Positions 1 through 47,216 of a DNA stretch of 47,216 bases are shown piece after piece. The stretch is from a virus. The notes under the pieces were generated by a model, which did not search any database, was not told the DNA's origin, and was given only the letters and a program-made list of their open reading frames with translations. The stretch spans positions 1 to 47,216 of IMG/VR virus record IMGVR_UViG_3300045925_000054. One strand, 5' to 3'. The position numbers were made by a program, and so were the translations under genes. Every line of letters begins with the position of its first letter. The stretch's first letter is position 1.

Positions 1-127
1 GCCGAGATCCTCGAGCTCCCGGACGGCTCCGTCGTCACCTGGGCGCGGAACGAGGACGACGCCGAAGACGTGCTGCTCCACATCTCGAGCGGCGGCACGC
101 TCCTGCACTCGTACACCTACGCACACG
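1..127. repeat. Terminal direct repeat, left copy (circular overlap)
   Basis: Bases 1-127 are identical to bases 47090-47216, and the reading frame of a tail gene passes through both copies without a break. The repeat is exactly 127 bp, a common maximum k-mer in short-read assembly, so the simplest reading is a circular contig (47,089 bp unique) rather than a biological terminal repeat. Circularity fits either a circularly permuted genome or cohesive ends. Confidence 0.93.
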
Positions 128-480
128 CGAGCCGGCAGATCAATCACCTGGGGCGGCCGCCCGGCGGCGGGTCCGATCACATCAACGTCTGGTTCTATAC
201 GCCCGACGACGATACGGCGCGGTTCGCGCTCGTCCTGCTCGCCGACGGATCCGAGGTCGCGTTCTTCGATACGTCCATGTTCACGCAAGGCCGGAACATG
301 GAGGCGAATACCCAGCAACTCTTCGGGCCGTCGACGTCCTGCACGATGGTGACGCTGCTCTTCACGGAGGTGCCGAGCGAGGCGTCGGAGGGCAGCGGCA
401 GCGTCGGCGATCCGGAACCGGTGCCGACCGGCGCCATCGGGCCGATCTCGTGGATCGAATGGCCGGAGGCCGACGACTAG
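1..480 (+). CDS. Tail protein, C-terminal part (gene split by window edge)
   Basis: This is the 3' end of the gene that begins at 46178; the frame is open from base 1 and stops with TAG at 478-480. Joined across the circle the protein is 463 residues (304 + 159). The segment continues a series of beta-rich blades with 'LPDGSVVTW' and 'LLADGSEVAFF' motifs resembling beta-propeller repeats, then ends in an acidic Ser/Gly/Glu linker and a Trp-containing tail. It lies between the distal tail gene (45207) and the tail-hub-like gene (482), so a tail-tip role is likely. The family is not recognised with certainty. Confidence 0.85.
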   Translation, partial: AEILELPDGSVVTWARNEDDAEDVLLHISSGGTLLHSYTYAHASRQINHLGRPPGGGSDHINVWFYTPDDDTARFALVLLADGSEVAFFDTSMFTQGRNMEANTQQLFGPSTSCTMVTLLFTEVPSEASEGSGSVGDPEPVPTGAIGPISWIEWPEADD

Positions 481-481
481 C

Positions 482-2191
482 ATGTTCATCTACTCCGATC
501 TCGATCTCGCGGATCCCGAGTCGTATTACGGCGGGTTCAAGGAAGGCCGCGTCATGCAGTGGGGCACCGCGGAACGCGCGATGTCCTCACGCTTCACCGG
601 CGACTGGACGGGCTCGCAGTTCAATCTCAAGGTGTCGGATTACGACCGCTCGATCCGGCAGCGGTTCGCGAGCACGACCGAGCGCATCTGGACGCAGCCG
701 CTGACGGTCCGGATGACGAATCGGATCAATCGCGCCGCGCTCGGTGCGCCCTACACGGTCTTCAACGGCGTGATCGTGAGCGCACAGCCAGGCGACGGCC
801 TGACCTGGGACTTCACGCTCTCCGACTTCGTCTCGTCGCGGCTGCTGACCGACTCCGCGATGATCCCGTGGCGGATGATCAAGGACGGCTTCCTCGAGCA
901 GATGGACGAGGTCGCCGAGGTCCTCGATCGCGAAATGCCGGAGCCGATCATCTACGGCCGGCACCTGCGGATCCCGGACGAGACGCCCCCTGTCGGTGCC
1001 GGATTCGTCTACGAGCCGATGTACCTCGGGATCATGGGCGGCCAACATATTTGGCTGATCGCCGGGCACGCGTGCGCGAATACCGGGCCGCTCTACATCG
1101 ACGGCGAGGAGACCACCGGGGCCTTCATCATTCCGGGGCCTGGCGACTTCGAGGACTTCGTCTCCGACACCTTCGGCGACACACGGCGCTATACGCTGCT
1201 CCGCGCGCCGGTCGGTGACGAGCTCGCCGACGAGACCGCGCGCGGCGACCACGAGATCGCGATCGCGGTCGACGGCATCGAGCCGAACGGCGACGGCTCC
1301 GGCGAGGTCATCACGGACCGGTTCGAGCAGTACAAGCATTTCCTGATCAACTTCGTGTGTCATCGAGGGCAGGCGTCGTACCAGTCCGGCGCGTGGCTGA
1401 CAAATCCCGAGTGGAATATCCAGTTCGAGGACACGCCGATCCTGATGGTCGACGAGCAGTCGTTCGACGACGGGAGCGCGATCGCCTTCACCTGCCTCGA
1501 CGACGGGTACATCGGCGCGGCCATCATCGGCGCGCGCGCCGGCGACCGCTCGAGCGCGAAACGGTGGATCGCCGAGTGGAACCGGTCATGCCGGGCGCAA
1601 TTCGGGATCACCCGGTACGGGCAGATGCGGATCGCGCTCCTGCATCCGACGCAGGCGATCAAGGATGCGGCCGTCCTCTATACCGGCGCCTACGAGATCC
1701 TGCGCGACAGTTTCCAGCCGGGCGACGTTGGCTGGCAGGATCACTGCAACATTCTCCCGGCGCGCGGCGACTACGAGCACGTCTCCGGCCAATGGAAGAC
1801 GAACGTGATCAATCGCCACGATCAGTCGCTCGCCGACTACGGGATCGAGATCCCGGGCGACACGCGCGACTACCCCTTCGCACCGGGGATCACGCACATC
1901 AATCACCTGGCGGTGCTCGAGGGGCGCGTCCGCGCCTATCCGCGCTGGCGGATCGCCTTCGACGGGACGGTCGGGCCGGATCCGGTGACGCTGGACTCGC
2001 CGGGGTACCGGGAGCTCGGCGACTACATCCGGTATACGCATCATGCCGCGATCGGCGAGCCGGATCAGATCCGACTCGCCCAGATCGAGAGGATCCAGGT
2101 CAACCCAGGGACGCGGAAGGTCCGGATCGTCGCCTTCGACTGCGAGGACCTGATCGACTTTGACGCGCCTGACGACGGGTCGCCGGCCTGA
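482..2191 (+). CDS. Tail-tip / hub-like structural protein
   Basis: 569 residues, starting one base after the previous stop. Position is the main evidence: it follows tape measure, distal tail and beta-propeller-like tail genes, where siphoviruses encode the tail hub or tail-associated protein. The N-terminal ~120 residues read like a baseplate-hub beta domain ('WTGSQFNLKVSDYDRS', 'YTVFNGVIVS'). The remainder is mixed alpha/beta with repeated 'TH.NHL' and 'IERIQVNPGTRKV' beta segments near the end. No peptidase or lysozyme motif was seen. The stop TGA overlaps the next ATG (TGATG), implying coupled translation. Exact hub identity is inferred. Confidence 0.7.
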   Translation: MFIYSDLDLADPESYYGGFKEGRVMQWGTAERAMSSRFTGDWTGSQFNLKVSDYDRSIRQRFASTTERIWTQPLTVRMTNRINRAALGAPYTVFNGVIVSAQPGDGLTWDFTLSDFVSSRLLTDSAMIPWRMIKDGFLEQMDEVAEVLDREMPEPIIYGRHLRIPDETPPVGAGFVYEPMYLGIMGGQHIWLIAGHACANTGPLYIDGEETTGAFIIPGPGDFEDFVSDTFGDTRRYTLLRAPVGDELADETARGDHEIAIAVDGIEPNGDGSGEVITDRFEQYKHFLINFVCHRGQASYQSGAWLTNPEWNIQFEDTPILMVDEQSFDDGSAIAFTCLDDGYIGAAIIGARAGDRSSAKRWIAEWNRSCRAQFGITRYGQMRIALLHPTQAIKDAAVLYTGAYEILRDSFQPGDVGWQDHCNILPARGDYEHVSGQWKTNVINRHDQSLADYGIEIPGDTRDYPFAPGITHINHLAVLEGRVRAYPRWRIAFDGTVGPDPVTLDSPGYRELGDYIRYTHHAAIGEPDQIRLAQIERIQVNPGTRKVRIVAFDCEDLIDFDAPDDGSPA

Positions 2192-3144
2192 TGGCACAGA
2201 CGGGGCCCGAGGGGCGCTTCCGGGTTCGGCTGCACGAAATCCTGATGCTGCGGCGCAGGGTGATCGAGTTGATCGACCAGCTGGAGGAGATGTTCTTCCC
2301 GACCGCGGTCGACGCAGCCGGGGCGCTCGACGGCGACGGCACCGACGGCGATCCCCTCGCCGTGCGGGTCGACGGCGTCACGATCACGATCAACGGCTCG
2401 AATCAACTCGAGGGCACGCCCGGCACGCCGTCGGACACGGTCGCGGCGCTCGATGGGACCGGCGTCGCCGGCGCCTCGACGGCATACTCCCGCGGCGATC
2501 ATCGCCACGCCGACGCGAATCGGCCGACGGACGACCAGAAGGCGGCGCTCGTCGGGACCGGGACGCCGAGCGCGTCGAATCCCTACGTGACGCTCGACAC
2601 GCTCGAGGCCGAGACCGGGGCCGGGGCCAGTCCCGGCGACCTTCCCCCGCACGCCGAGACGCACGAGGAAGGCGGCGACGACGAAATCGACATTACGCAG
2701 CTCGGGGGCTACAGCGGCGATCCCGATGACGTCCTGCACGGCGACGGGACCTGGGGACCGGCCGGCGGCGGCAGTCCTGGCGGGTCCATCTCGGGCACGC
2801 TCTACCCGATCAAGTTCACGGCCGACGGACAGGGCACGGACGTCACGACCGGCGTCAAGAACTACACGGCCCTGATCCCGATCGACACCTACGACGGCAC
2901 GATCACGGCCTGGAACCTGCGGTCGCCGGTGGCCGGGAGTCTCGAGGTCAACGTCCGGAAGAACGGCGCCTCGGTCACGTCTGGGAATAACCCGGCGCTG
3001 ATCGCCGACGACGAGGCCGAGGACACGAACCTCGGCGACTGGGCGGACGTGTCGGTCGCCGGCGGGGATCGCTTCTCGATCAATGTCCTCTCCTGCTCGG
3101 GGATCGAGTTCTTCGAGCTGCAGTTGACGGTGGAGCGGACGTAG
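2191..3144 (+). CDS. Tail fibre-like protein
   Basis: 317 residues. A short N-terminal amphipathic helix (about residues 12-32) is followed by repetitive Gly/Asp/Thr-rich shaft sequence containing 'YSRGDHRHADANRPT', a motif commonly seen in phage tail fibres ahead of trimeric beta structure. A second linker has 'VLHGDGTWGPAGGGSPGG'. The last ~120 residues form a beta-rich domain ('LEVNVRKNGASV', 'SINVLSCSGIEFFELQLTV') that resembles repeated units in the next gene, suggesting a shared sandwich fold. Start ATG overlaps the upstream stop. Probable receptor-facing or tail-tip appendage. Confidence 0.68.
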   Translation: MAQTGPEGRFRVRLHEILMLRRRVIELIDQLEEMFFPTAVDAAGALDGDGTDGDPLAVRVDGVTITINGSNQLEGTPGTPSDTVAALDGTGVAGASTAYSRGDHRHADANRPTDDQKAALVGTGTPSASNPYVTLDTLEAETGAGASPGDLPPHAETHEEGGDDEIDITQLGGYSGDPDDVLHGDGTWGPAGGGSPGGSISGTLYPIKFTADGQGTDVTTGVKNYTALIPIDTYDGTITAWNLRSPVAGSLEVNVRKNGASVTSGNNPALIADDEAEDTNLGDWADVSVAGGDRFSINVLSCSGIEFFELQLTVERT

Positions 3145-4407
3145 ATGTCGAAGCAGATCGCCGTCTGGAAATCGAATGGGCAGCCGTCGCAGCTCGATCC
3201 GACGTACTGCCATCCGATGCAGTCGCAGAACGCCTTCGACGGCGACGAGGCGGATCACACGATGGTCGTCTCGGCGCCTGGGACCTTCAGGAACTTGCGC
3301 GTCGTGGTCTCGGCGGCGCCTGGGTCTGGGAAAAGCTGGGAAGTGACGCTGCGCGTCAACGGGGCCGACACGGCCTTGATGGTCACGATCAGCAATAGTG
3401 ACACTGACGAGGAGAACACGGCCGACGAGGTCACGGTCGCGGCGGGCGATCTGATTGCGCTCGAGTTCCGTCCGCCGTTCCTGAATCCGCCGGCGCTGAT
3501 GTCGCCGTCGGTCTCGCTCGAGTTCGATAGCGATGTGGCAGGGACGTCGATCTACGGCGGGTCACAACCGCAGGACATGACCACGACGCGCACGACGGCG
3601 CTGCTCGGCGGGACGAATGCCGGCGGCGGATGGTCCGATGAGGCGTCGATCGTCGCTGTGGCGGGCACGTTCACGCGGCTGGATGTGTCGCTCAATGCGA
3701 GCTCTGGCACCGGGACGTACACGTTCAACATTCTCAAGAACGGCGTCGTCCAGGACGGGTCCGGCGGGACCGTCGACACGACGCTCGTCATCACGGCGCC
3801 GGCGACGTCTGGCTCGTCGACGTTCTCGCTCTCCTGCGATCCGCTCGACGAGTTTCAGCTCCGCGCCGTGCCGTCCGGCCTCACCACGAATCGCCGCCCA
3901 CGCTACGGCGTCGCCTTAGTCGCGGACATCGTCGGGAACTCGAACTTCCACGCGTCGCCCCCTGATGCCACGGACGGAGGATCGACCACGAATTATCACG
4001 GCTTCGGCGACTCGTGGACGCAATGGTCGACGACGGAGGCCGATCATCAGGCGACGGTCGGCGTGGCCTTCGAGTTGAGATTCCTCGCGGTCAGCGTCAC
4101 GGAGGCGCCAGGGGCGGGCAAGGGCTACGGCTTCACGCTCCGCAAGAATGGCGCGGCGACGAGTCTCTCGGCGGGCGTGATCGGCACGAACTCGAGCGGC
4201 TCCGATACCGGGTTCGTCAGTTTCGCGCCGGGCGATCTCATCAACGTCGAGACGGTGCCGATCGGATCGCCGACGGGCCTCGGCTTCCGGTTCGCGTGCT
4301 GTCAGTTCATCGACGATGGCGCAGGGAGCGAGGGCAGTCCAGGATCCGAAGGCAGTCCGGGCGAGGAGACGGGAGTCGAGACCGGGTTCGCGTCGGTCGG
4401 TGGATAG
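3145..4407 (+). CDS. Tail appendage protein with repeated beta-sandwich units
   Basis: 420 residues, ATG immediately after the preceding TAG. Three homologous blocks of roughly 130 residues can be seen, each with 'GTFRNLRVVVSAAPGSGKSWEVTLRVNG', 'GTFTRLDVSLNASSGTGTY.FNILKNG' or 'LRFLAVSVTEAPGAGKGYGFTLRKNG'-type cores (quoted in parts), followed by an 'AGDLI..E..P' strand. These resemble the C-terminal domain of the upstream gene. The protein ends in a Gly/Ser/Glu linker ('GSEGSPGSEGSPGEE'). Likely a multivalent tail-tip or decoration protein; binding target unknown. Confidence 0.65.
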   Translation: MSKQIAVWKSNGQPSQLDPTYCHPMQSQNAFDGDEADHTMVVSAPGTFRNLRVVVSAAPGSGKSWEVTLRVNGADTALMVTISNSDTDEENTADEVTVAAGDLIALEFRPPFLNPPALMSPSVSLEFDSDVAGTSIYGGSQPQDMTTTRTTALLGGTNAGGGWSDEASIVAVAGTFTRLDVSLNASSGTGTYTFNILKNGVVQDGSGGTVDTTLVITAPATSGSSTFSLSCDPLDEFQLRAVPSGLTTNRRPRYGVALVADIVGNSNFHASPPDATDGGSTTNYHGFGDSWTQWSTTEADHQATVGVAFELRFLAVSVTEAPGAGKGYGFTLRKNGAATSLSAGVIGTNSSGSDTGFVSFAPGDLINVETVPIGSPTGLGFRFACCQFIDDGAGSEGSPGSEGSPGEETGVETGFASVGG

Positions 4408-4443
4408 GGCGACGGACACGCAAGGACTGTACAAGGGGCAGTG

Positions 4444-4773
4444 ATGAGCGGCAACGGACTCGACGGCAGCGGTACACCGGTGTGGTTGAAGGCGGCAGTG
4501 CAACTCGGCGTGACGTCGATTATCGCGATGGGCCTCGTCTATTGGATGGCGACGACCCTCTATACCCAGAACCGTGAGATGAAAGCGCAGCTCGAGGGCC
4601 ACGCCCAGGAATATATGTTCCTGAAGGGCGCGATCACGAGTCACATCGATCAGACCGGCCGGACGAACGCGCTGATCCTGCACTACCTACAGTCGATGTG
4701 TTTCAACACAGCGACGGACGTCGAGCAACGGCGCCGGTGCATTCCGCCGAGAGACAGCAGCATCGAGCCATAA
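4444..4773 (+). CDS. Small single-pass membrane protein (holin-like candidate)
   Basis: 109 residues. ATG at 4444 has AAGGGG five bases upstream; a GTG at 4441 would be too close to that site. One hydrophobic segment lies at about residues 17-38, followed by a charged helix rich in Gln/Glu/Lys and a Cys-containing basic tail. It sits right after the tail-fibre genes, where siphoviruses often carry lysis genes, so a holin or holin-like role is possible, but a single TM and this tail are not diagnostic. Two CDSs later another tiny membrane protein (6688) is an alternative holin. Confidence 0.6.
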   Translation: MSGNGLDGSGTPVWLKAAVQLGVTSIIAMGLVYWMATTLYTQNREMKAQLEGHAQEYMFLKGAITSHIDQTGRTNALILHYLQSMCFNTATDVEQRRRCIPPRDSSIEP

Positions 4774-4784
4774 AGGGGATCCCC

Positions 4785-6398
4785 ATGATGCGTCGACTAC
4801 TGATCGCGGGTCTGCTGTCGCTGCTCCCTGTGTCCGCATACGCACAGACGATGGTCGAGATCCCGCCGGGGCAGGCGTGGCAGCCGATCATCAACAAGGC
4901 GCCGGCGGGCTCGACGTTCGTGATCAAGGCCGGCGTCCATCGGATGCAGCAGATCACGGCGCGTACCGGGGACACCTTCCTCGGTGAGACGCAGGGCGGC
5001 ATCCTGCTCGCGATCGTCTCCGGCGCGAAGGTCCTCGACGGCTGGCAGCGTGACGGGAGCGCGTGGTTCGTCACCGGGCAGACGCAGCAAGGACAACGCC
5101 TCGGCGGCGTCTGCTGGTCGACGCATCCGCGGTGCGACTACCCCGAGGATCTGTTCTTCGATAACGTGATGAAGAAACACGTCGCCTCGCGCGGGCAGGT
5201 GGGCGCCGGGACGTGGTTCTTCGACTACGCGGCCGATCGGATCTACGTCGGCGACGATCCATCGGGCCGCGTCGTCGAGACGAGCGTGACGCCGAATCTC
5301 TTCCACCTGAGCGCGGCGTCGCGCGTCACAGTCGACCGGCTGATCGTCGAGAAATACGCGGCGGCGAGTGGGACGAGTGCACTCAGCATCGGCGCGTCGG
5401 CGTCTGGCGGCGTCGACTGGTCAGTGCGGAATTCGATCGTCCGGTGGAATCACGGCGGCGGCATCGGCACCGACTCGAGGACGTCGGCGATCAATAACCT
5501 CGTGCACCATAACTGCGGGTTCGGGTTCACCGGCGCAGGGTCGGACATTCTGATCGAGGGCAACGAGATCGCGTACAACAACATCGCCGCGGGCGCGACG
5601 GTCACGAGGTGGAGCGCAAACGGCTCGGATGGGACCTGCGGCTATAACTCCTACTGGGGCGCCGGCGGATCGAAATGGGTGTGGACGACGAATCTGATCG
5701 TCCGGAACAACCGATCCCATCACAACGACGGGCCAGGCCTCTGGACGGACATCAATAACATCGGCACGCTCTACGAGCAGAACGTCGCCTTCGAGAACGC
5801 GCGATCAGGCATCTTTCACGAGATCAGCTACGACGCCGTCATTCGGAAGAACACGCTCAAGCGGAACGGCCTGTCGCGCGACTACCCGTGGTGGACGACG
5901 AGTGCGGGCATCGAGGTCACGAGCTCGCGGAACGTCGAGGTCTACGAGAACACGCTCGAGGACAACTTCCAGGGGATCACCGGACTCAACGATCATCGGG
6001 GCGCCGGCGAGTACGGACCGTGGACGCTGATCAATCTGCTGGTGCACGGTAATGTGATCACCTACACGACCGAGCCGGCCGCCGGCACCGGGCGTACTGG
6101 GGTGATCGATAGCGCGAACCTCGACGCCTTCAGGCCGCAGGCGAACAACCGCTACACGAACAACGGCTATACCCGCGGCGGCGATTTCCTCTGGCTCAAT
6201 CAGACAATGTCGAAGGCGACCTGGCACGGGCAGGGGATGGACGTCGAGAACGCGACCGGCGGAACGGCGCCGCCAGGCATCGTCGCTCGAGTGACGGACC
6301 TGATCGCTGTCACGTTCTACGGGTCGTATGCCGCGGTGGCACTGTCGCTGCTCGCTGGGATCTTTTGGCTCACACGAGATGCGCACGACAGGAAGTGA
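4785..6398 (+). CDS. Exported, membrane-anchored parallel beta-helix protein
   Basis: 537 residues. ATG 4785 was chosen because it has AAAGGGGA upstream and starts a textbook Sec signal peptide: MMRR, a Leu/Ala core and an A-Y-A/Q cleavage site near residue 20. The body has right-handed parallel beta-helix repeats typical of the pectate-lyase-like superfamily, with recurring N-N-x-x-x-x-N-x-G/S turns such as 'IRKNTLKRNG' and 'VEVYENTLEDN'. The last ~30 residues contain one hydrophobic membrane segment ('AVALSLLAGIFWL') followed by a charged end, so the protein probably sits in the host envelope with its helix outside. That is unlike a virion tailspike. It may be a polysaccharide-active enzyme or a surface-altering protein; substrate unknown. 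Confidence 0.75.
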   Translation: MMRRLLIAGLLSLLPVSAYAQTMVEIPPGQAWQPIINKAPAGSTFVIKAGVHRMQQITARTGDTFLGETQGGILLAIVSGAKVLDGWQRDGSAWFVTGQTQQGQRLGGVCWSTHPRCDYPEDLFFDNVMKKHVASRGQVGAGTWFFDYAADRIYVGDDPSGRVVETSVTPNLFHLSAASRVTVDRLIVEKYAAASGTSALSIGASASGGVDWSVRNSIVRWNHGGGIGTDSRTSAINNLVHHNCGFGFTGAGSDILIEGNEIAYNNIAAGATVTRWSANGSDGTCGYNSYWGAGGSKWVWTTNLIVRNNRSHHNDGPGLWTDINNIGTLYEQNVAFENARSGIFHEISYDAVIRKNTLKRNGLSRDYPWWTTSAGIEVTSSRNVEVYENTLEDNFQGITGLNDHRGAGEYGPWTLINLLVHGNVITYTTEPAAGTGRTGVIDSANLDAFRPQANNRYTNNGYTRGGDFLWLNQTMSKATWHGQGMDVENATGGTAPPGIVARVTDLIAVTFYGSYAAVALSLLAGIFWLTRDAHDRK

Positions 6399-6493
6399 TC
6401 GCCGGCGTGGCTGGTGGGCGTCGGCCACTGGGACCACTGGCTCCCCCGGGTCGGTGGAGGCGGACGGCCGATCACGAACGGCCGGCGATCACT
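6394..6493. repeat. 13-bp inverted repeat enclosing a structured spacer
   Basis: AGTGATCGCCGGC (6394-6406) is repeated as its exact complement at 6481-6493, with 74 bases between. Inside is a second stem, GGCCG (6466-6470) with CGGCC (6479-6483). The left arm overlaps the stop codon of the beta-helix gene and the element ends 24 bases before the next ATG (6518). It could be a transcription terminator without a T-run, or an RNA processing or translation-control structure. Confidence 0.6.
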
Positions 6494-6517
6494 GCACGTC
6501 CTGTGTGTGGTTACCGG

Positions 6518-6697
6518 ATGAGTAACTTCCTCGAGGCGATCGTCGAGCAGAACCGACGGCTCCGTCTGGCGCTGGTGACGATCCGCGATGTGCCGGGGAT
6601 CGACGTCGAGCGGCTCAGGCAGATCGCGCGCCGGGCGCTCGAGGACGCCGGCGAGGACGCTCGGATTCTCGAGATCAAGGGGGAACGATGGCTCTAA
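6518..6697 (+). CDS. Small helical hypothetical protein
   Basis: 59 residues, high in Leu, Arg and Glu; predicted to be almost entirely helical with a heptad-like pattern in 'LEAIVEQNRRLRLAL' and 'LRQIARRALEDAGED'. No family recognised. It overlaps the downstream two-TM gene by 10 bases, so the two are probably co-translated. By position it may belong to the lysis or membrane group, for example as a partner of the small membrane protein, but that is inference only. Confidence 0.55.
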   Translation: MSNFLEAIVEQNRRLRLALVTIRDVPGIDVERLRQIARRALEDAGEDARILEIKGERWL

Positions 6698-6828
6698 CGA
6701 TAGTCGGTCTGTTGGCGCTGGCGGCCTTCGTCGTGGCGATCGCGTCGGCGCTCGGCAAGGCGCCGCTCTGGGTCGCGGTGCTCCTGCTCTGCCTGATCGC
6801 ACTCCTGCAGGCGATCCCGGTCCGCTGA
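6688..6828 (+). CDS. 46-residue two-TM membrane protein (holin-like)
   Basis: ATG 6688 preceded by AAGGGGG at a good distance; stop TGA at 6826-6828. The peptide has two hydrophobic stretches, about residues 3-22 and 27-43, joined by a short G-K-A-P turn, and almost no soluble part. This is the architecture of small class II-like holins and of many uncharacterised phage membrane peptides. It overlaps the upstream helical gene and faces the convergent minus-strand gene at 6855. Holin is the leading guess; no endolysin partner could be identified. Confidence 0.6.
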   Translation: MALTIVGLLALAAFVVAIASALGKAPLWVAVLLLCLIALLQAIPVR

Positions 6829-6854
6829 GGCCTGGACGTGTATCAGTCCTAATG

Positions 6855-7043
6855 CTACGCGACCTGTCGCGTGGTCGCCTTCTCGAACTCGCGCCGGTAG
6901 ACGGCCTCGGTGACCTCGACGCCGTCGACGAGGTACTGCCTCGCCGTCCCGTCGCTGCGCACTTCGAATCTGAGGATGAGATCGCGGAGCTCGGTCTCGG
7001 TGACGTGGCAGGTCTCCTCGCCGATCCTGATGGTCATGGTCAT
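6855..7043 (-). CDS. Small hypothetical protein next to attP
   Basis: 62 residues, with the start chosen at 7043 because AGGGA lies 7 bases upstream; the frame is open further upstream but without a ribosome site. The sequence is acidic/amphipathic: an N-terminal beta strand ('MTIRIGEETCHVTE'), a helix, then a 'YLVDGVEVTEAVYRREFE' segment. It could be a small regulator or recombination directionality factor because it flanks the attachment site, but no DNA-binding motif is recognisable. Confidence 0.5.
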   Translation of the reverse strand: MTMTIRIGEETCHVTETELRDLILRFEVRSDGTARQYLVDGVEVTEAVYRREFEKATTRQVA

Positions 7044-7130
7044 GATGTCGTCCCTGAATGAGGTCGCTCGATCGCGGCCGAACGGAACGACGGGCAAACG
7101 TCAGGCCAGGATGCGGTCCGACCGGTGTCG

Positions 7131-7176
7131 GTCCCTGTAGTTGTCCCTGTACCACCGGCAGAAATGAGTCCCTGTA
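7131..7176 (+). repeat. Candidate integrase arm-type sites, left arm (3 copies)
   Basis: GTCCCTGTA occurs three times in direct orientation at 7131-7139, 7143-7151 and 7168-7176, and the same word recurs on the other side of the core. Short direct repeats flanking the core on both sides are what arm-binding sites of lambda-type integrases look like. Role inferred from position. Confidence 0.6.
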
Positions 7177-7213
7177 CTGCCAATGAATTGTGAGGATTGT
7201 CTAAGGAATTACG

Positions 7214-7259
7214 TGGTGAGCCGGGGGGGAATCGAACCCCCAACCCGCAGATTAAGAGT
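7214..7259 (-). other. attP core: 3' half of tRNA-Lys(CUU)
   Basis: Read on the minus strand, 7259-7214 gives an anticodon loop CTCTTAA (anticodon CTT, Lys), the 3' strand of the anticodon stem, a variable loop GGGTT, a perfect 5-bp T-arm (GGGGG/CCCCC with loop TTCGATT), the 3' acceptor strand CCGGCTC, discriminator A and encoded CCA. Upstream of the anticodon loop the sequence cannot form the anticodon stem, so only the 3' half is present. This is the usual identity segment that restores a host tRNA on integration, and the integrase gene ends 63 bases away. Confidence 0.87.
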
Positions 7260-7277
7260 TTCGCCCCCGCAGATTGT

Positions 7278-7304
7278 GCAACTCTTCCCGTCTCAACCAG
7301 TTGC
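7278..7304. repeat. Inverted repeat between attP core and integrase
   Basis: GCAACT (7278-7283) and AGTTGC (7299-7304) form a 6-bp stem with a 15-base loop. Just before it, CCCGCAGATT occurs twice (7244-7253 inside the tRNA half and 7266-7275). These may be core-type or accessory protein sites of the integration complex, or a weak terminator for integrase. Confidence 0.4.
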
Positions 7305-7322
7305 GAAGAATGCGTGCGGGGA

Positions 7323-8600
7323 TTACGCACGTAGCTGGGCCCCGGATTTGTTCGGGTTCGCGCGGGTTTTCGCGGCGTGGTCCTGTACTTTTCCCTGTAC
7401 AGCGTCCACTAATTGCACCTTCGATCCGAGCCGCTCGAGGGGTGCGGTTTTCGCGAGCGCGGCGAGGTGCGTGTACTTCTTCGTGGTCGCTGGTGACAGG
7501 TGTCCCATCACGAGTTGTCGGACCGCGTCGCCTTCGCCCCACTCGGCCAGCATCGTGGCCATCGAGTGCCGGATCGAGTGGAACGTCACGCCGCGCTTCA
7601 CGCCGTAGTGAAACCGGTGCGCCTTGGGGAGCGTGGCACTGGCACGCGTCGCCGCGGCGCTGAGCGTCGTTTCGAGACGGTGCACGCGCTCGCCGAAATA
7701 GGCGACGACATACTTGCGGCGAGGATGCGTCTTCCTCGCCCACGTCAGGATCTCGTGGAGCTCCGGCGACACCGGGATGATCTGCGGCCGTTGCGTCGCC
7801 GCGGCCGTCTTATGCCGTTTCACGACGATCCGTGTCAACTCGGGATTGAGGTGCACCTTCCACTGCAGATCGAGGATCGACTCCAGCCGGAGCTCTGGGG
7901 CGTAGACGGCGATCGCCATCGCCAGGCGCGCGTGCGGCGCCGCGGCGGCGATCCAGGCGCGCAGCTGCTCCACCGTCAGTACGGCATCACGCTCCGGCAC
8001 GACGTCGCGCTCAATGTCGCGAAACGGATTCACGCTGACCTTCGTCTTTGCGCGGAACGCCGGCAGGAGCGCGGTGCGGTACATCATGCTCATCGCGCTG
8101 CGATAGTGATTCTTCCGCGGGCCGCTCAACGTCAGCGACGTCATCCAGTCTTCGAAGCGTTCGATCCAGTCCGGATGCGTGATCGGATCTGCGAGCCGGA
8201 GGTCGTGATACGGCGCCGACTCGGCGCGCGCGCGAGCGGCGGCGACGGACTTGCGCCACTGCGGCTTCGCCTTCGTCGGGTCCGGGAGTGTCGCCGGACG
8301 CTTGCCGAAAAACTGCAGCACGAGGCGCAGCGTGTCTTGGACGACGTCGAGCCGTCGCACCCTCCCCTTCTTCCGGACGTACTTCAGATGCTCGAAGGCC
8401 CAGGAGGAAAAGCTCGGCGTCTGCGTGCGATCGAAGGGCGCGATGCCGTGCGCGTCCTGGCGCACGCGCTCCATGATCTTCCCTTCGACGATGTCCGCGT
8501 CTTGCTTTGACAGCTGCCCCGTCGTGCCGGTGTGACGGCGGCCGTCCCACCAGAAGTCGTAGCGAAACGTCTTGCCACGCGGGTGTCTGAACGTGGTCAC
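7323..8600 (-). CDS. int: Tyrosine recombinase (phage integrase)
   Basis: 425 residues. The catalytic domain carries R238 (in 'LRLESILDLQW'), a Lys-containing beta hairpin near 261-264, H341-x-x-R344, H367 and the nucleophile Y376 ('GHLSPATTKKYTHL'), the full set of the tyrosine recombinase family. The N-terminal ~60 residues look like an arm-binding domain and 62-185 like the core-binding SAM-like domain. The gene ends beside an attP with tRNA-Lys identity. Start GTG at 8600 overlaps the TAG of the upstream exported-protein gene by one base, so integrase is probably made from the lysogenic transcript by translational coupling. Confidence 0.95.
   Translation of the reverse strand: MTTFRHPRGKTFRYDFWWDGRRHTGTTGQLSKQDADIVEGKIMERVRQDAHGIAPFDRTQTPSFSSWAFEHLKYVRKKGRVRRLDVVQDTLRLVLQFFGKRPATLPDPTKAKPQWRKSVAAARARAESAPYHDLRLADPITHPDWIERFEDWMTSLTLSGPRKNHYRSAMSMMYRTALLPAFRAKTKVSVNPFRDIERDVVPERDAVLTVEQLRAWIAAAAPHARLAMAIAVYAPELRLESILDLQWKVHLNPELTRIVVKRHKTAAATQRPQIIPVSPELHEILTWARKTHPRRKYVVAYFGERVHRLETTLSAAATRASATLPKAHRFHYGVKRGVTFHSIRHSMATMLAEWGEGDAVRQLVMGHLSPATTKKYTHLAALAKTAPLERLGSKVQLVDAVQGKVQDHAAKTRANPNKSGAQLRA
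7381..7400 (+). repeat. Candidate integrase arm-type sites, right arm
   Basis: TCCTGTAC (7381-7388) and TCCCTGTAC (7392-7400) match the three repeats left of the attP core in sequence and orientation. They lie inside the 3' end of the integrase gene, as arm sites do in several phages. Role inferred. Confidence 0.5.
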
Positions 8601-9100
8601 TACTCACGTCCGAGCGTCTTGAGCGCGTCGAGTTGCTGCTGCTCACAGGCGTTCCGCATCGTGAAATTTTGTGGGAACATCTTGAGGCATTCCCGTCGAA
8701 TGGTCGCACGATCTCCGCTCGCCATCTGTCGGGCCGTGAGAGCTCGATAGGCATCCTGTTGCTGCGTACGACACGCGGCCTGCATCGTGAAGTTCGTTTC
8801 GAACATCTTGGCGCATTGGGCGTTGATCTGCGCGGTCGCGTCAGACGAGGACTCCGTGTCGTCCTTACCGGTGGACCTAGAAAACGTCTGCGTGCTCTTC
8901 GTAAGTTCCAAGTCGATGTCACTGAGTGGCACCGTGATACGCGTGCCAGAGCGCAACGTGATCGTCACGTTCCCGTTGAGCGGCTCGCCAAAAGAGGCCA
9001 TCGTCGGCCCGACCCTCAAAACGATGATGAGATTCTGGGCGGAGACGTCGGTGGCAATCAGGACCACGCCAGCGACCATGGCGAGTCGGGGGAGTCGCAT
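8600..9100 (-). CDS. Exported protein with two Cys-paired repeats (lysogeny-linked)
   Basis: 166 residues. ATG 9100 has AAGGAGG seven bases upstream. A Sec signal peptide (hydrophobic core then S-A-Q near residue 22) is followed by a beta-rich domain ('NGNVTITLRSGTRITVPL') and two tandem 30-residue repeats at 92-121 and 134-163. In each repeat two Cys are spaced 14 apart (C96/C110, C138/C152) around a K-M-F-x-x-N-F-T-M core and a Q-Q-x-D-A end. The gene lies between repressor and integrase on the lysogenic strand, so it may be expressed in the prophage and act in the periplasm, for example in superinfection exclusion or lysogenic conversion. Family not recognised. Confidence 0.75.
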   Translation of the reverse strand: MRLPRLAMVAGVVLIATDVSAQNLIIVLRVGPTMASFGEPLNGNVTITLRSGTRITVPLSDIDLELTKSTQTFSRSTGKDDTESSSDATAQINAQCAKMFETNFTMQAACRTQQQDAYRALTARQMASGDRATIRRECLKMFPQNFTMRNACEQQQLDALKTLGRE

Positions 9101-9309
9101 CACGAAACCTCCTTCAATAAATCATTTATAAGTTCTTCAACGAGTTCGGCGGCGACTGGTCTGAGTGCGTGCAACCGCGCGGCCTTCTCGGCCACGGACG
9201 GCAACGTCAAAGAGCGACTTCGCAAGGGCTTGAACTTCACCCCATTTAGCTTTGAGATCTTCGAGTTCTTGTTCGAGTCCTGCGATGCGACGAGCCGAAG
9301 CTGGGACAT
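9100..9309 (-). CDS. Small protein overlapping the repressor 3' end (or its shifted C-terminus)
   Basis: 69-residue frame overlapping the repressor gene out of phase. ATG 9309 has AGGGAGG eight bases upstream. Its last 35 residues ('ARLHALRPVAAELVEELIND') use strongly G/C third positions and look like a natural helical protein end, while the repressor frame in the same stretch becomes Arg-rich and poor. Its TGA overlaps the ATG of the exported protein gene (TGATG). Either it is a true overlapping gene, or a one-base insertion has separated the original repressor C-terminus from its body. Confidence 0.5.
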   Translation of the reverse strand: MSQLRLVASQDSNKNSKISKLNGVKFKPLRSRSLTLPSVAEKAARLHALRPVAAELVEELINDLLKEVS

Positions 9310-9637
9310 CGGCGGTACCTCCCTGTGAGGCCGTCGATCGTTCAACGCCGTCGTGACGGAGAAGGTCAATTCCATAACGCTCGACGAGAAACCGACTCGC
9401 GAGGTCCTCGTACGTCGTGTCATACAAACTCGCCAGGCCGCGGAGTAACTCCGGATCAGGGTTCTGATTTTTCCCTTCCTCGATCCACCTGATGGCCGTG
9501 TAGGTCACGGGCAGGCGCTTCCGCCGCGCAATGTTGGCGGCCTGTGATTGATTCCACGTTTTCAGGTTCCTCAGTTCAATCAAGTACTTAGCGAGATTCG
9601 GGAGAATGACCGGACGGTGCTGGGGCGACGGCGCCAC
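9137..9637 (-). CDS. XRE-family repressor (CI-like)
   Basis: 166 residues from GTG 9637. Residues about 11-70 form a helix-turn-helix of the XRE type ('WNQSQAANIARRKRLPVTYTAIRWIEEG'-region, quoted in part: 'LPVTYTAIRWIEEGK'), followed by 'PELLRGLASLYDTTYEDLA', typical of Cro/CI domains. A Leu/Glu coiled coil ('AGLEQELEDLKAKW') could dimerise it. It is divergent from the Cro-like gene at 9732, with a perfect dyad between. The frame's last 25 residues are Arg-rich and may follow a frameshift. A TACGAT -10 element ends six bases before the GTG, so the mRNA may be leaderless. No LexA-type Ser/Lys peptidase domain is visible. Confidence 0.82.
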   Translation of the reverse strand: MAPSPQHRPVILPNLAKYLIELRNLKTWNQSQAANIARRKRLPVTYTAIRWIEEGKNQNPDPELLRGLASLYDTTYEDLASRFLVERYGIDLLRHDGVERSTASQGGTADVPASARRIAGLEQELEDLKAKWGEVQALAKSLFDVAVRGREGRAVARTQTSRRRTR

Positions 9638-9643
9638 GGCGTG

Positions 9644-9671
9644 ATCGTAGCGGCGAATCGCGACAGCGCAA
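9644..9671 (-). promoter_or_regulatory. Candidate leaderless repressor promoter
   Basis: On the minus strand TTGCGC (9671-9666), a 16-base spacer and TACGAT (9649-9644) fit a sigma-70 promoter. The predicted start falls on the first base of the GTG at 9637, and there is no Shine-Dalgarno sequence, so repressor translation would be leaderless as for lambda cI from PRM. Inference from spacing only. Confidence 0.5.
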
Positions 9672-9691
9672 CGTCCTGCAAAACTTTGCTG

Positions 9692-9721
9692 TTGACAGTG
9701 TAACGACACTGCGCGTAGTCT
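9692..9721 (+). promoter_or_regulatory. Early rightward promoter
   Basis: A consensus TTGACA -35 box at 9692-9697 is followed after 18 bases by TAGTCT (9716-9721) as a weak -10. It would start transcription just before the Cro-like gene. A perfect dyad lies across the -35 and spacer, so repressor binding would block polymerase. Confidence 0.55.
9696..9711. promoter_or_regulatory. Operator dyad
   Basis: CAGTGT-AACG-ACACTG is a perfect 16-bp palindrome overlapping the early promoter. A further half-site CAGTG occurs at 9730-9734. It lies between the divergent CI-like and Cro-like genes, the expected place for the lysis-lysogeny operator. Binding by either protein is inferred. Confidence 0.7.
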
Positions 9722-9731
9722 CCTCGCTACA

Positions 9732-9953
9732 GTGCAGCGAGCATTTACGTTCGACGTCGATCTGATGCAGCGAGACATGGCCGAGCGTGGCTGGCAATCC
9801 ACGGACATGGCTCACCGGGCGGATTGTGCGGTGTCAACCGTGACTCGGTTCCTGCGCGGCGAATACCAGACACCGAGGACGGCCAAGAAGCTGTCGAAGG
9901 CGCTGGGTCGATCCGTCCGCCGTTACCTCATTGATGCCTCGGCGGTCGCATGA
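9732..9953 (+). CDS. Cro-like HTH regulator
   Basis: 73 residues from GTG 9732; an internal ATG at 9765 is a possible shorter start, but the 'FTFDVDLM' segment before it fits the usual N-terminal strand/helix of this family. The helix-turn-helix is clear in 'STDMAHRADCAVSTVTRFL' (residues 23-41) with a 'TPRTAKKLSKALG' third/fourth helix. It is the first gene of the rightward operon and is divergent from the repressor, so a Cro role (early repression, lytic choice) is likely. No strong ribosome site precedes it. TGA overlaps the next ATG. Confidence 0.78.
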   Translation: MQRAFTFDVDLMQRDMAERGWQSTDMAHRADCAVSTVTRFLRGEYQTPRTAKKLSKALGRSVRRYLIDASAVA

Positions 9954-10348
9954 AGCCCTCACAGAATCAGGCTCATCCGGGGTTAGGGGAAGTCCGAAGT
10001 CCGGACCCGCTGAAGGCGACGGTCCGAAAATCGGACCCGAGAGAAGAGACGGTCAGGACGCCGGACCGGGCGGATGCGGCGGCGCTCGCCGCGACAATCT
10101 TCAGTAACGCCCTTGAGTCCGCGCGCATCACGCGCGACGAAGCCGCGTACCTGTTCGGCGTGAGTCGGTCGCTTGTCGACAAGATGACGACCGGTGAGAA
10201 GGCGCCATCGCTCGTGCAGCTCCTCATGCTCCCCCCGCAGTTCCACCTCGCGTTGATTCGCGAACTCGACGCGCACTTCGGTCTCGGTCGCTCCGTCCTC
10301 GCCCAGGTGCAGCAGGCGATCGGGACGCTCGGCCTCCTGGTGCGGTGA
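9950..10348 (+). CDS. Second HTH-type early regulator (CII-position)
   Basis: 132 residues. The N-terminal ~45 residues are unstructured and contain three copies of a V-R-x-(P/S)-D element encoded by GTCCG/CGGAC inverted repeats (9992-10006 and 10021-10037). The middle has an HTH ('TRDEAAYLFGVSRSLVDKM') and the end an amphipathic helix bundle. It overlaps the Cro-like gene by ATGA. By position it may be a CII-type activator or replication-linked regulator; sequence alone does not decide. Confidence 0.65.
   Translation: MKPSQNQAHPGLGEVRSPDPLKATVRKSDPREETVRTPDRADAAALAATIFSNALESARITRDEAAYLFGVSRSLVDKMTTGEKAPSLVQLLMLPPQFHLALIRELDAHFGLGRSVLAQVQQAIGTLGLLVR
10021..10037. repeat. Perfect 7-bp inverted repeat within early gene
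   Basis: GGTCCGA-AAA-TCGGACC is a perfect dyad with a 3-base centre. A related dyad, GTCCG-AAGTC-CGGAC, lies at 9992-10006. Both are in the N-terminal coding part of the CII-position gene. They may be protein-binding sites or a by-product of the encoded peptide repeat. Confidence 0.45.
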
Positions 10349-10461
10349 TGCGACTGATCTTCGACGTGGTCTTCGAGGTGGTGTTCTGGGCGGTGATTGG
10401 CGTCGGCGTGATCGGCGTCTATTCGGCGCTGCGTCTCTGGCAGATCCGGAGGTCGCGGTGA
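10348..10461 (+). CDS. 37-residue single-pass membrane peptide
   Basis: ATG overlaps the upstream TGA (TGATG) and its own TGA overlaps the next GTG (GTGA). Almost the whole peptide is one hydrophobic helix (about residues 8-28) ending in a basic tail 'RLWQIRRSR', consistent with an inner-membrane, cytoplasm-facing C-terminus. Function unknown; one of a series of tiny membrane peptides in the early operon. Confidence 0.55.
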   Translation: MRLIFDVVFEVVFWAVIGVGVIGVYSALRLWQIRRSR

Positions 10462-10715
10462 GCACTCGCCCGCTGCTCACCGTGAAGCAGGTGTGCGCGC
10501 AGCTCGCGATCGGCCGCACGCAGCTCAACGGTCTCTTCCGCGCCGGCACGCTCACGAAGATCGCGCTCGGCCCGAAGTCGATCCGCGTGGACCCTGACGA
10601 CCTCGATCGCTACATCGATCGGTCACGCCTGGTCACGCAGAAGGTGCGTGACTCGGTCGCGCGCGCCTTCGACGCCGACCAGCAATTCGACCAGACGGAC
10701 AACCCGTTCCGGTGA
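10458..10715 (+). CDS. Excisionase-like winged HTH protein
   Basis: 85 residues from GTG 10458. Residues 6-52 match the MerR/Xis-type helix-turn-helix of the excisionase family: 'LLTVKQVCAQLAIGRTQL' followed by 'GTLTKIALGPKSIRVDPDDLDRYI' (in part), including the characteristic wing and 'V.P.DLD.YI' end. A basic/acidic helix follows. It may act as Xis with the integrase, or as an early transcription regulator. Overlaps both neighbours by 4 and 1 bases. Confidence 0.75.
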   Translation: MSTRPLLTVKQVCAQLAIGRTQLNGLFRAGTLTKIALGPKSIRVDPDDLDRYIDRSRLVTQKVRDSVARAFDADQQFDQTDNPFR

Positions 10716-10807
10716 TGGCTGACGTGCTCACGCTCCTGGCCGCGGTCGTCACGACGCTGCTGCTGTCCCTCATCGGCCATGCCCTGATCGGCAAGGTGTC
10801 GCGGTGA
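10715..10807 (+). CDS. 30-residue membrane peptide
   Basis: ATG inside the preceding TGA (TGATG). The peptide is one hydrophobic helix from about residue 4 to 26 ending in G-K-V-S-R. No family recognised. Coding is supported by the tight overlaps on both sides and the same layout as the peptides at 10348 and 10804. Confidence 0.5.
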   Translation: MADVLTLLAAVVTTLLLSLIGHALIGKVSR

Positions 10808-10911
10808 AGACGGCGGACTTCCTGTGGTTCGTGCTATGCGCGTCGGTGCTCGGCGCGGCGCTCTCGGGTGTGGCGTATGTCGCGGCGGCCTACGTGGAGT
10901 TGAGCCGGTGA
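10804..10911 (+). CDS. 35-residue membrane peptide
   Basis: GTG 10804 overlaps the preceding TGA (GTGA) and the gene's own TGA overlaps the next GTG. A hydrophobic helix spans about residues 6-30. Function unknown; together with its neighbours it forms a chain of overlapping tiny genes. Confidence 0.5.
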   Translation: MKTADFLWFVLCASVLGAALSGVAYVAAAYVELSR

Positions 10912-11021
10912 AGCTGCGCACCTGGTGGCGGGCGTTCCGTCTGCGCCGCGGCTGGATTCAGATCGACGCGCTGCGCGGCGAGGGTCTGTACGCACGATTG
11001 CGGGCGGTGATGCGCGGGTAG
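10908..11021 (+). CDS. 37-residue basic peptide
   Basis: GTG 10908 in a GTGA overlap. Rich in Arg and Trp ('LRTWWRAFRLRRGW'), with no membrane segment; could bind nucleic acid or a host protein. Not recognised. Ends just before a structured intergenic element. Confidence 0.45.
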   Translation: MKLRTWWRAFRLRRGWIQIDALRGEGLYARLRAVMRG

Positions 11022-11027
11022 GTATTC

Positions 11028-11077
11028 GCGGGCCTGCCGCGCGGCGTGGGAGCGCCGTCGGTCGCAGTCAGGCCCGC
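11028..11077 (+). ncRNA. Nested hairpin in early intergenic gap
   Basis: GCGGGCCTG (11028-11036) pairs perfectly with CAGGCCCGC (11069-11077); inside, CGGCG (11042-11046) pairs with CGCCG (11053-11057). The gap (11022-11124) has no gene and interrupts a run of overlapping genes. It may be an attenuator, mRNA-stability element or small RNA. Typed as ncRNA only because it is a structured RNA; no promoter was seen. Confidence 0.4.
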
Positions 11078-16168: not shown

Positions 16169-17103
<935 letters not shown>

Positions 17104-24497: not shown

Positions 24498-25997
24498 GTG
24501 CCACTGATCACGCGGTCGCGGATCGTTCGGTATCTGCCGACGCGACGCTTCGTCACGTCGAAGTTGACGAATCTGATCCTGCAGTCTGTCGACGGGACGC
24601 TGACGACCGCCGGTGCACTTTCGAAGCAGATCGGGAAGATCACGTCGGCGACGCTGACGACCGCTGGGGCGCTGACGAAACAGACCGCCCGAGTCCTGAC
24701 CGCGACGCTGACGACGGCCGGCGCACTCACCAAGCAGACAGCGCGCGCACTCGAGGCGACGCTGACCTCGGCCGGCGCCATCACCAAACAGACACAGAAG
24801 GTCCTGGTCGGGACGCTCTCGAGCTCCGGGACGCTGATCGTCCTCTGTCTGAAGGCGCTCAGCGGCACACTGACGACTGCTGGCGATCTGGTCAAGCAGA
24901 CCGCCAGGGCGCTCGACGCGACGCTGACCTCGAGCGGGGCGCTCGCGGCGATCAAGATCGCCCTGAAGTCGCTCGACGCGACGTTGACGACGGCCGGCGC
25001 ACTCCTGAAGCAGACACACAGGGCGCTGACGGCGACGCTCACGACTGAGGGCACGCTCGCCACGTCGACGATCAAGTTGCTCGAGGCAACACTGACGACA
25101 TCCGGCGCCCTCACCACGATTAAAGCCGCGCTGAAGTCGCTCGAGGCGACCGTCACGACCGCCGGCGCGCTCGCCAAGCAGGCCCAAAAAACGCTCGCGG
25201 GCACGCTGACGACGTCCGGAACATTAACCCCCCTGCTTCAGAAAACGCTCGCGGCGACGCTCTCAACGGCCGGGACGCTGCTGAAGCAGACCAGCCGGGA
25301 GCTGCTGGCGACGCTCTCGACGTCCGGCGCACTGACCGCGGCCAAGATCGCGCTCCGGTCGCTCGAGGGCACCCTGAGCACGGCCGGCGCACTGACGACA
25401 CAGACTGCCCGGTCGCTGACGGCGACCCTCTCGAGCTCCGGCGCACTCGTGAAGTTGACGGCGAAGGCGCTCACAGCGACCCTGTCGAGCTCCGGCACGG
25501 TCACGGCGATCAAGACGGCGCTCCGATCATTCGACGGAACGCTGACCACCGCCGGCGACCTCTCGAAGTCGACTGCGAAGACATTCGTCGCCTCGCTCAG
25601 CACGGCCGGCGCACTCACGAAGAGCACGGCCAAGTCGCTGGCGGCGACGCTGACGACGGCCGGCACGCTGACGATCGTGCGGGCGAAGGCCTTCGTCGCG
25701 ACGCTCACCTGCTCCGGCGCGCTGTCCCGACACATTGCCAGGGCACTGTCCGGCGAAATAACCCCCCTCTCTACGCTAAATAAACAGACGTCGACGTCGA
25801 CGGCCGGGACGCTCGCGATCACGGCCGTGCTGACGGCGGTACTCTTCGCGCCGCCGCCGGAAGGATTCGTCCGTCAGGCCAGGACGAAGGCGCCGAAACT
25901 GTCGACGGTCTCCACCTCCTCGCCGACCATCCGACCGAGCTCAACGTCGGAGCCAACACTTCGCCCGACGCAGACGAAGAAACCGAGGATCATCTGA
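24498..25997 (+). CDS. Tandem-repeat fibre-like protein (22 repeats)
   Basis: 499 residues from GTG 24498. After a basic N-terminus of 32 residues come 22 tandem repeats of the form (A/G)-T-L-(T/S)-(T/S)-x-G-x-L followed by K-Q-T-x-(K/R)-x-L. Eighteen repeats are 18 residues; four (numbers 7, 10, 14, 17) are 20 residues and carry '(I/A)KxALKSL'. Such strand-turn-strand repeats suggest a long solenoid or shaft. The C-terminus is Thr/Pro/Lys-rich and ends K-K-P-R-I-I. Likely an elongated virion appendage; repeat number could vary by recombination. Confidence 0.72.
   Translation: MPLITRSRIVRYLPTRRFVTSKLTNLILQSVDGTLTTAGALSKQIGKITSATLTTAGALTKQTARVLTATLTTAGALTKQTARALEATLTSAGAITKQTQKVLVGTLSSSGTLIVLCLKALSGTLTTAGDLVKQTARALDATLTSSGALAAIKIALKSLDATLTTAGALLKQTHRALTATLTTEGTLATSTIKLLEATLTTSGALTTIKAALKSLEATVTTAGALAKQAQKTLAGTLTTSGTLTPLLQKTLAATLSTAGTLLKQTSRELLATLSTSGALTAAKIALRSLEGTLSTAGALTTQTARSLTATLSSSGALVKLTAKALTATLSSSGTVTAIKTALRSFDGTLTTAGDLSKSTAKTFVASLSTAGALTKSTAKSLAATLTTAGTLTIVRAKAFVATLTCSGALSRHIARALSGEITPLSTLNKQTSTSTAGTLAITAVLTAVLFAPPPEGFVRQARTKAPKLSTVSTSSPTIRPSSTSEPTLRPTQTKKPRII
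24594..25805 (+). repeat. 22 tandem 54/60-bp coding repeats
   Basis: The 1,212-bp array consists of eighteen 54-bp and four 60-bp units (18 x 54 + 4 x 60 = 1,212), always in frame. Units are diverged, not identical, so it is an old array under selection. The 60-bp units recur every third or fourth unit. Confidence 0.85.
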
Positions 25998-26962: not shown

Positions 26963-27038
26963 CGCTGTGGTTCACATCCTCCCATCGCCGCGCGGCTCTG
27001 CGTGCTTGAAAGCTAATCTGGGGCCCCACGTTTTCACA

Positions 27039-46177: not shown

Positions 46178-47216
46178 ATGCCTCCCCCTGCCAGTTACGT
46201 CGACATCGATACGATCCCCTTCGCGGCCGTCGTGACGCAGGCGGCCTTTAACGTCGCGAACGAGCGATGGTTCCGTCTCGTCCTCGCGTCCGATGCCGTC
46301 GCCGGGTTCTTCACGGAGATCGGGGGGACCTTCACGCCGCGGTATGACCTCTTCGAGGACGACGGATCGACGCTCGTCCGGACGATCAATAACGCCAACA
46401 ATAACGCCTGGAACTTCCCGCTCGAGTCGGGGACCTACTACCTGCAGGTGCGGAAGTTCGGGGGCGGCGCCTCGAACTTCGACTTTACCTTCCACGCCGA
46501 CACGCGGCCGCTCGACGGGTTCACGGTGCCGGAGGACGCGATCGTCATCAATGACGATACCGGGCTGTTTCCGGCGACCGTGATGCAGATGGACGGGACC
46601 GTCGTCGGGTATCTGCGGATGCCGGCGGGCGAGATCGGCGGGTCGCTGCCGACGGGCGAGTCGATCTGGCAGGATCGCTTCGGTCGGCGCGCGGCGTCGG
46701 GGACGCTGGCCGTCTTCGACAATACCGGCGCCTATGTCGACTCGACGTCGCAGACGTTTTCGGACTTCCCGATCCCGGTCTCGATCACGGGCTCCGATAC
46801 CGACTTCTATGCACACGAGCCGACGACGGGCAACGTCTATCGCATCACGACCGCGGGCGCGGTGACGCTCGTCGCCACGATTCCGCAGGCGACAGCGATC
46901 GGCGTCTCGGCGGACGGGACGGTCCTCTACTACGTCGACGCGACGGACTACCTGACGCTCTTCGACGCCAGCGATAACGTGATCCACCGCTGGGATCTGG
47001 TCAACGACGAGGCCGATCCGGACTTCTACACCTACGCGGGACTCGCGACCGACGTCGGCGGCCTCGCGGTGACGGCAAACTTCTGGCCGGCCGAGATCCT
47101 CGAGCTCCCGGACGGCTCCGTCGTCACCTGGGCGCGGAACGAGGACGACGCCGAAGACGTGCTGCTCCACATCTCGAGCGGCGGCACGCTCCTGCACTCG
47201 TACACCTACGCACACG
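46178..47216 (+). CDS. Beta-propeller-like tail protein, N-terminal part (continues at 1-480)
   Basis: 346 residues are encoded before the window ends; of these 304 precede the repeated 127 bases, and with 1-480 the full protein is 463 residues. N-terminal domain of about 110 residues is beta-rich ('RYDLFEDDGSTLVRTINNAN', 'GTYYLQVRKFGGGASNFDFT') and resembles carbohydrate-binding or pre-peptidase-like modules. From about residue 180 come repeated 'ITGSDTDFYAHEPTTGNVYR' and 'IGVSADGTVLYYVDATD' blades typical of six/seven-bladed propellers. Probably a tail-tip receptor-contact protein. Confidence 0.8.
   Translation, partial: MPPPASYVDIDTIPFAAVVTQAAFNVANERWFRLVLASDAVAGFFTEIGGTFTPRYDLFEDDGSTLVRTINNANNNAWNFPLESGTYYLQVRKFGGGASNFDFTFHADTRPLDGFTVPEDAIVINDDTGLFPATVMQMDGTVVGYLRMPAGEIGGSLPTGESIWQDRFGRRAASGTLAVFDNTGAYVDSTSQTFSDFPIPVSITGSDTDFYAHEPTTGNVYRITTAGAVTLVATIPQATAIGVSADGTVLYYVDATDYLTLFDASDNVIHRWDLVNDEADPDFYTYAGLATDVGGLAVTANFWPAEILELPDGSVVTWARNEDDAEDVLLHISSGGTLLHSYTYAH
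47090..47216. repeat. Terminal direct repeat, right copy
   Basis: Identical to 1-127. The tail gene frame is the same in both copies, so the two ends are the same locus. Confidence 0.93.

Follow-up and report, generated by a model that had tools for sequence, protein, structure and literature searches.

A tRNA-Lys(CUU) 3' half between two sets of arm-type repeats: a probable lambda-like attP in a temperate tailed phage of Acidobacteriota

Why would a virus keep half of a tRNA gene beside its integrase gene? The window considered here, by which we mean the whole stretch of DNA that was analysed (47,216 nucleotides, IMG/VR record IMGVR_UViG_3300045925_000054), raises precisely this question. 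We put at roughly 0.94 the probability that the locus serves as attP in a temperate tailed phage that infects Acidobacteriota, forming a lambda-like intasome that targets tRNA-Lys(CUU), with crossover at the anticodon loop. The relevant features are the following, distances being counted in the direction of the tRNA, negative from the anticodon loop and positive from the CCA end.

1 to 127, no strand: end repeat that equals 47090-47216, where a circular assembly overlaps itself
7131 to 7139, plus strand: candidate P-arm site, exact copy of GTCCCTGTA, +75 from the CCA end, its neighbour 12 bp off
7143 to 7151, plus strand: candidate P-arm site, exact copy of GTCCCTGTA, +63 from the CCA end
7168 to 7176, plus strand: candidate P-arm site nearest the core, exact copy of GTCCCTGTA, +38 from the CCA end
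7214 to 7259, minus strand: attP common core, the tRNA-Lys(CUU) 3' half running from anticodon loop to CCA (sequence reading and host-gene matches)
7323 to 8600, minus strand: lambda-type tyrosine integrase, 425 aa (PF00589, phrog_1, alignment, model and fold match)
7380 to 7388, plus strand: candidate P'-arm site, imperfect copy GTCCTGTAC, one C short, at -130, within the int 3' coding tail
7391 to 7400, plus strand: candidate P'-arm site TTCCCTGTAC (octamer copy TTCCCTGTA at 7391), at -142, within the int 3' coding tail
47090 to 47216, no strand: end repeat, identical to 1-127

The 46 bp of the core correspond exactly to a tRNA-Lys(CUU) 3' half. On the minus strand, from 7258 down to 7214, it spells in succession the anticodon loop CTCTTAA with its CUU, the 3' anticodon strand TCTGC, the variable loop GGGTT, a perfect T arm (GGGGG, TTCGATT, CCCCC), the acceptor strand CCGGCTC, an A and the terminal CCA. 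This base-by-base reading bears out the original prediction, which had recognised a tRNA-Lys T arm, anticodon loop and CCA end at 7214-7259 and had seen no matching 5' half: ARAGORN finds zero tRNA genes in the whole window, so that a 5' half is indeed missing there. Just beyond the core on the int side, a 10-bp direct repeat (CCCGCAGATT) at 7266-7275 copies the core segment 7244-7253, and is possibly an old core remnant or due to chance. A perfect hairpin at 7313-7331 (CGTGCG, 7-base loop, CGCACG), not followed by a T run, overlaps the int stop codon.

A lone 3' half next to int would also be expected at the attR end of an integrated prophage (loci L151 and L152 may be compared), in which case the window would represent an integrated phage with bacterial DNA alongside, and not a free one. 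We hold this to be very improbable. The first and last 127 bp of the window are identical, and a second contig (IMGVR_UViG_3300045934_000099, G001 hereafter) runs from window position 26995 to the end and then from 1 to 11053, sharing the 127 bp across the join; because of this overlap and of this second contig, the genome is a circle of 47,089 bp, and we are therefore dealing with the attP of excised or replicating phage DNA and not with the end of a prophage. The site is unbroken in both contigs, where the phage P side follows the core without interruption at its CCA end, and arm sites flank the core on both sides within one molecule. The genome codes for TerL, capsid, portal and tape measure proteins. 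The two contigs differ by five mismatches and one gap, all within 1-11053, and are identical over 26995-47216. Elsewhere in the window, a gene at 4698-6398 codes for a 566-aa right-handed beta-helix protein (PF13229, NosD-like), perhaps a tail or surface-degrading protein, and the large ORFs ahead of it, at 482-4407, have no Pfam or PHROGs match; tandem-like repeats (GACGCTGA every ~54 bp) occupy 24540-25000, inside an ORF at 24498-25997. No excisionase was identified among the window genes.

The integrase matches PF00589 (E 2.5e-12) and phrog_1, with an arm-binding-like domain at about residues 1-50 and a catalytic domain at about 205-380. The latter has the R, K, H-x-x-R, H and Y signature that places the protein among tyrosine recombinases (R238, K264, H341, R344, H367 and Y376); five of these six residues are invariant across 13 members of the family, H367 being replaced in a few. 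An AlphaFold2 model built from the 13 aligned sequences (pLDDT 84) predicts at residues 3-50 a beta-beta-beta-alpha domain (strands 3-5, 12-18 and 21-26, helix 32-50), and it replaces an earlier model from 3 sequences, which was poor (pLDDT 56). Lambda Int (1z1b) aligns over model residues 1-372 with Z 16.1 and an rmsd of 14.1 over 300 residues, a high value because the individual domains match while their relative placement differs from that of lambda Int. By its fold, therefore, the protein is predicted to have the N-terminal arm-binding domain of lambda-type (heterobivalent) integrases.

Which bacterium would such a phage enter? In a collection of 84,980 species, the exact core 45-mer is present in five contigs of four genomes, all named Acidobacteria. 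Three of these contigs reach far enough upstream, and there the 45-mer ends a complete tRNA-Lys(CUU), in which GGGCCGGTAGCTCAATTGGCAGAGCAGCAGA precedes the core; the other two are cut inside the tRNA gene or at the core. Identity between phage and host spans 46-47 bp, starting one base ahead of the anticodon loop. Joined in silico, the host 5' half, the phage core and the P side make a complete tRNA-Lys(CUU) at attL, while the reciprocal attR junction gives no tRNA: the core is the part of the host tRNA that lies 3' from the anticodon loop, and it restores the gene, as is typical of anticodon-class tRNA-targeted attP sites. The genomes carrying the core are metagenome-assembled, and in a phylum sample of 396 Acidobacteriota genomes ten have it with at most three mismatches. 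The four exact-core genomes gave short catalytic-domain matches and no full-length relative of the integrase. Among viral contigs, the P-arm sequence matched in G001 only, hence gave no host junction, and no integrated copy or junction of the window phage was found, near-identical contigs from other samples, G001 apart, stopping short of the site. The original prediction had supposed that both host site and family could be read from the locus, and that bacteria should have tRNA-Lys(CUU) genes whose last 45 bases are these, with prophages there. Such genes do exist, in the 84,980-species collection only in Acidobacteriota; the core match points to tRNA-Lys(CUU) and to that phylum, whereas class and family are beyond its reach. 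Unsequenced bacteria having an identical tRNA gene could be further hosts.

As for prophages at this gene, an Acidobacteriota genome (G126) offers a case in point. Its sole copy of the core is a 3' half cut off at the anticodon loop and lying between a catalase-peroxidase-like gene and a Terminase_2 gene (L123 9874-11777), and a scan of that genome with at most three mismatches detected no intact tRNA-Lys(CUU). The remnant and the terminase gene are a prophage end at the same tRNA-Lys(CUU) site. In another genome (G247), a serine-recombinase ORF (L125 9876-11464) reads into the tRNA-Lys(CUU) gene; in a third (G007, L085/L134), the flank after the tRNA is similar to that of G247, with a second core copy at the contig edge, an element of another type at this same tRNA. 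Because of this prophage end, this serine recombinase and these similar flanks, the gene looks like an integration hot spot. At a further locus (L089, about 7740-7918), the last 21 bases of an intact tRNA-Lys(CUU) recur (CGATTCCCCCCCGGCTCACCA) ~80 bp beyond the gene, perhaps as the scar of an element with T-loop crossover.

The window integrase matches nothing in the annotated phage records (50,697 of them, at E 1e-5), which gave no match in DNA or protein searches. Searches with the integrase and its alignments retrieved relatives at 34-44% identity from viral contigs and Acidobacteriota genomes. All well-aligned members with enough sequence adjoin a tRNA 3' half (from the anticodon loop) or a tRNA, mostly tRNA-Leu. 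Anticodons, as given below, were read from the loops, with ARAGORN confirmation where the gene is intact (G469, G507 and G358).

Leu(CAG) target: G064/L128, L137, L142, L144, G358
Leu(GAG) target: L138, L141, G469
Leu(CAA) target: L145, G507
Poor Ser-like half: L139

In the tree of the family the window integrase sits on a long branch whose place is uncertain, and a switch of target from Leu to Lys is likely. Three relatives are complete prophages, with an intact tRNA-Leu at one end and an anticodon-to-CCA remnant at the other (contig coordinates converted from locus coordinates).

G469, contig C133: tRNA at 16566-16652, remnant at 71552-71607, 56-bp repeat, about 55 kb
G507, contig C112: tRNA at 63285-63371, remnant at about 105620-105674, 56-bp repeat, about 42 kb
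G358, contig C4: intact tRNA at about 258765-258851, remnant at about 210430-210487, 58-bp repeat, about 48 kb

In G469 and G507 int adjoins the remnant, which is also the arrangement predicted for the window. From core to core, the G064 contig spans 41.9 kb, and it codes for a TerL 45% identical to that of the window. Phages do carry tRNA genes, and the fragment could in principle be one of these, decayed and devoid of any role; yet a perfect 46-bp match to one bacterial group, stopping at the anticodon loop beside int, in a family where relatives repeat the same anatomy at other tRNAs, leaves this idea almost no credit.

The same boundaries bear on the place of strand exchange. It might involve the T loop or the acceptor end, the longer identity being kept merely to preserve the tRNA: such classes are known (Islander, PMC4383910), and identity alone cannot reveal a crossover. 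Still, identity stops 0-2 bases from the anticodon loop in the window as in G469, G507 and G358, and the G126 remnant likewise starts at this loop, so that we find a crossover further inside the tRNA unlikely. For an anticodon-loop attP, exchange is expected at the corresponding end of the core, about 7252-7259, at an exact point that we infer.

What, then, of the repeats? The octamer TCCCTGTA has four copies in the whole 47 kb, all of them around the core (0.21 expected; 0 of 100 shuffles reach four), and five of the six GTCCCTGTA-like sites of the genome, one mismatch allowed, fall at 7050-7399. Five direct copies had been announced: four are exact octamers, and the fifth, at 7380 rather than 7381, lacks one C. 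Two were said to lie inside int, and they do so at about codons 401-407 of 425, in the tail past the conserved part. Taken by itself, the window repeat is only suggestive, since some octamer with four copies in 300 bp turns up in 9 of 60 shuffles and is hence not rare in such sequence; a test for any octamer common to both sides of the core does not discriminate. What makes the arm-site reading convincing is that the register is conserved in relatives, octamers being located as follows.

Window: -142/-141 and -130; +38, +63 and +75
G064: -140 and -128; +36, +60 and +72
L138: -129; +42, +66 and +78
L137: -139 and -127; +18 and +42
L144: -141 and -129; +43 and +67
G469: -141 and -129; +18 and +42, with a weaker +54
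L145: -150 and -138; +63 and +75
L142: -139; +20 and +53
G507: -138; +79; weaker partners 12 bp away

A pair spaced by 12 bp at -152 to -136 is present in seven of nine members (null mean 0.25, maximum 3 in 5,000 draws), and a 12- or 24/25-bp spacing beyond CCA in eight of nine (null mean 1.4, maximum 6 in 4,000 draws), figures to be read with the proviso that members are related, not fully independent, and that ranges were chosen after looking. The octamers themselves differ between members while the register persists, in the form of a pair near -141/-129 and, past CCA, of as many as three sites at intervals of 24 and then 12 bp, and simple shared descent of the letters is disfavoured because of these differences. 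Arm-type repeats thus occur on both sides of the core, as in lambda-type (heterobivalent) integrases, and the window integrase presumably binds its own. They might instead serve as operators, say of int itself or of a repressor. The repeats adjoin small genes, and in Cluster J phages arm-like repeats have been discussed as possible regulators of int (PMC3706429); what is conserved, however, is their placement with respect to the tRNA core rather than to any gene. On the int side the sites fall outside int in L128 and L138 and within its 3' tail in the seven other members of the same orientation, and are almost equally far from the core in all of them, which makes operators an improbable reading. 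As regards other signals, no promoter-like sites were found, and terminator-like sites came in about the number expected by chance.

Arm sites they would be, then, and perhaps of a common design. In L141 and G358, unlike the other relatives, int is found beyond the CCA end of the tRNA half; L141 nevertheless holds the arm register despite this opposite side, while in G358 arm pair and core are mirrored relative to other members. On balance we lean towards a single attP scaffold, fixed to the tRNA half and made of up to five arm sites on a 12-bp grid, upon which arm sequence (TACAGGGA, TGTTGCGA, GGGGGTAC, GGAGTCAC, GGTGGGAC), tRNA target (Leu CAG, GAG, CAA; Lys CUU), int position and, once, core polarity vary, the int-side sites being mostly placed in the variable 3' coding tail of int. 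Were this correct, the integrase family would be a natural series in which to study the arm-recognition code and target switching.

We infer that the window phage itself integrates, and the sequence of events might be the following. The integrase (7323-8600) would bind core-type sites around the anticodon loop, while its N-terminal domain would hold the direct repeats, of which three lie beyond CCA and two in the 3' tail of int; attP would so be folded into a lambda-like intasome able to capture tRNA-Lys(CUU) in the host. Exchange of strands at the anticodon loop would split that tRNA gene and supply an identical 3' half. Hence attL would consist of a complete tRNA-Lys(CUU) with phage DNA after it, and attR of int and then the orphan 3' half, which would leave int at the opposite end from the intact tRNA.

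Few phages of Acidobacteriota have been isolated, and a literature search found no paper on the attachment sites of such phages. An exact 46-bp match here gives a nameless virus a likely host at the level of the phylum, at a tRNA-Lys(CUU) target that other elements use too, and the series of relatives could be used toward recognition rules and integration vectors for Acidobacteriota.

This type of attP is already well known from other phages. Lambda has a three-domain integrase to which that of the window, about 18% identical, aligns from the N-terminal domain on, and arm sites on both sides of its core; its attP differs in that the target is not a tRNA gene. Very similar sites are found in the mycobacteriophages Pixie and Omega, in a group where cores of 30-45 bp rebuild the tRNA (PMC10865867). 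Another scheme is tRNA-dependent lysogeny, where a short core leaves the tRNA unrestored and the phage brings a full replacement tRNA (PMC10865867); the window does not fit this scheme, with a 46-bp core that restores the tRNA and a phage without a tRNA gene. Pixie (Cluster K3; PMC3203893) also targets tRNA-Lys, with a 47-bp core and five direct arm-type sites, of which two flank it on one side and three on the opposite one, while differing in its actinobacterial host and in a sixth, inverted site. Omega (Cluster J) resembles the window in an attP located 3' of int, in a core with its left boundary inside the anticodon loop and in direct arm repeats on both sides, and differs by having arm pairs only, a 44-bp tRNA-Leu core and an actinobacterial host; arm sites lie within the int 3' coding tail in the window and are not placed there for Omega in the available text (PMC3706429). 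More broadly, Islander lists 2,083 islands with an anticodon-centred site (PMC4383910) that show, as do the complete prophages among the window's relatives, an intact tRNA at one end and a displaced fragment at the other, the family described here standing apart by its placement in Acidobacteriota and by an int found mostly at the remnant end.
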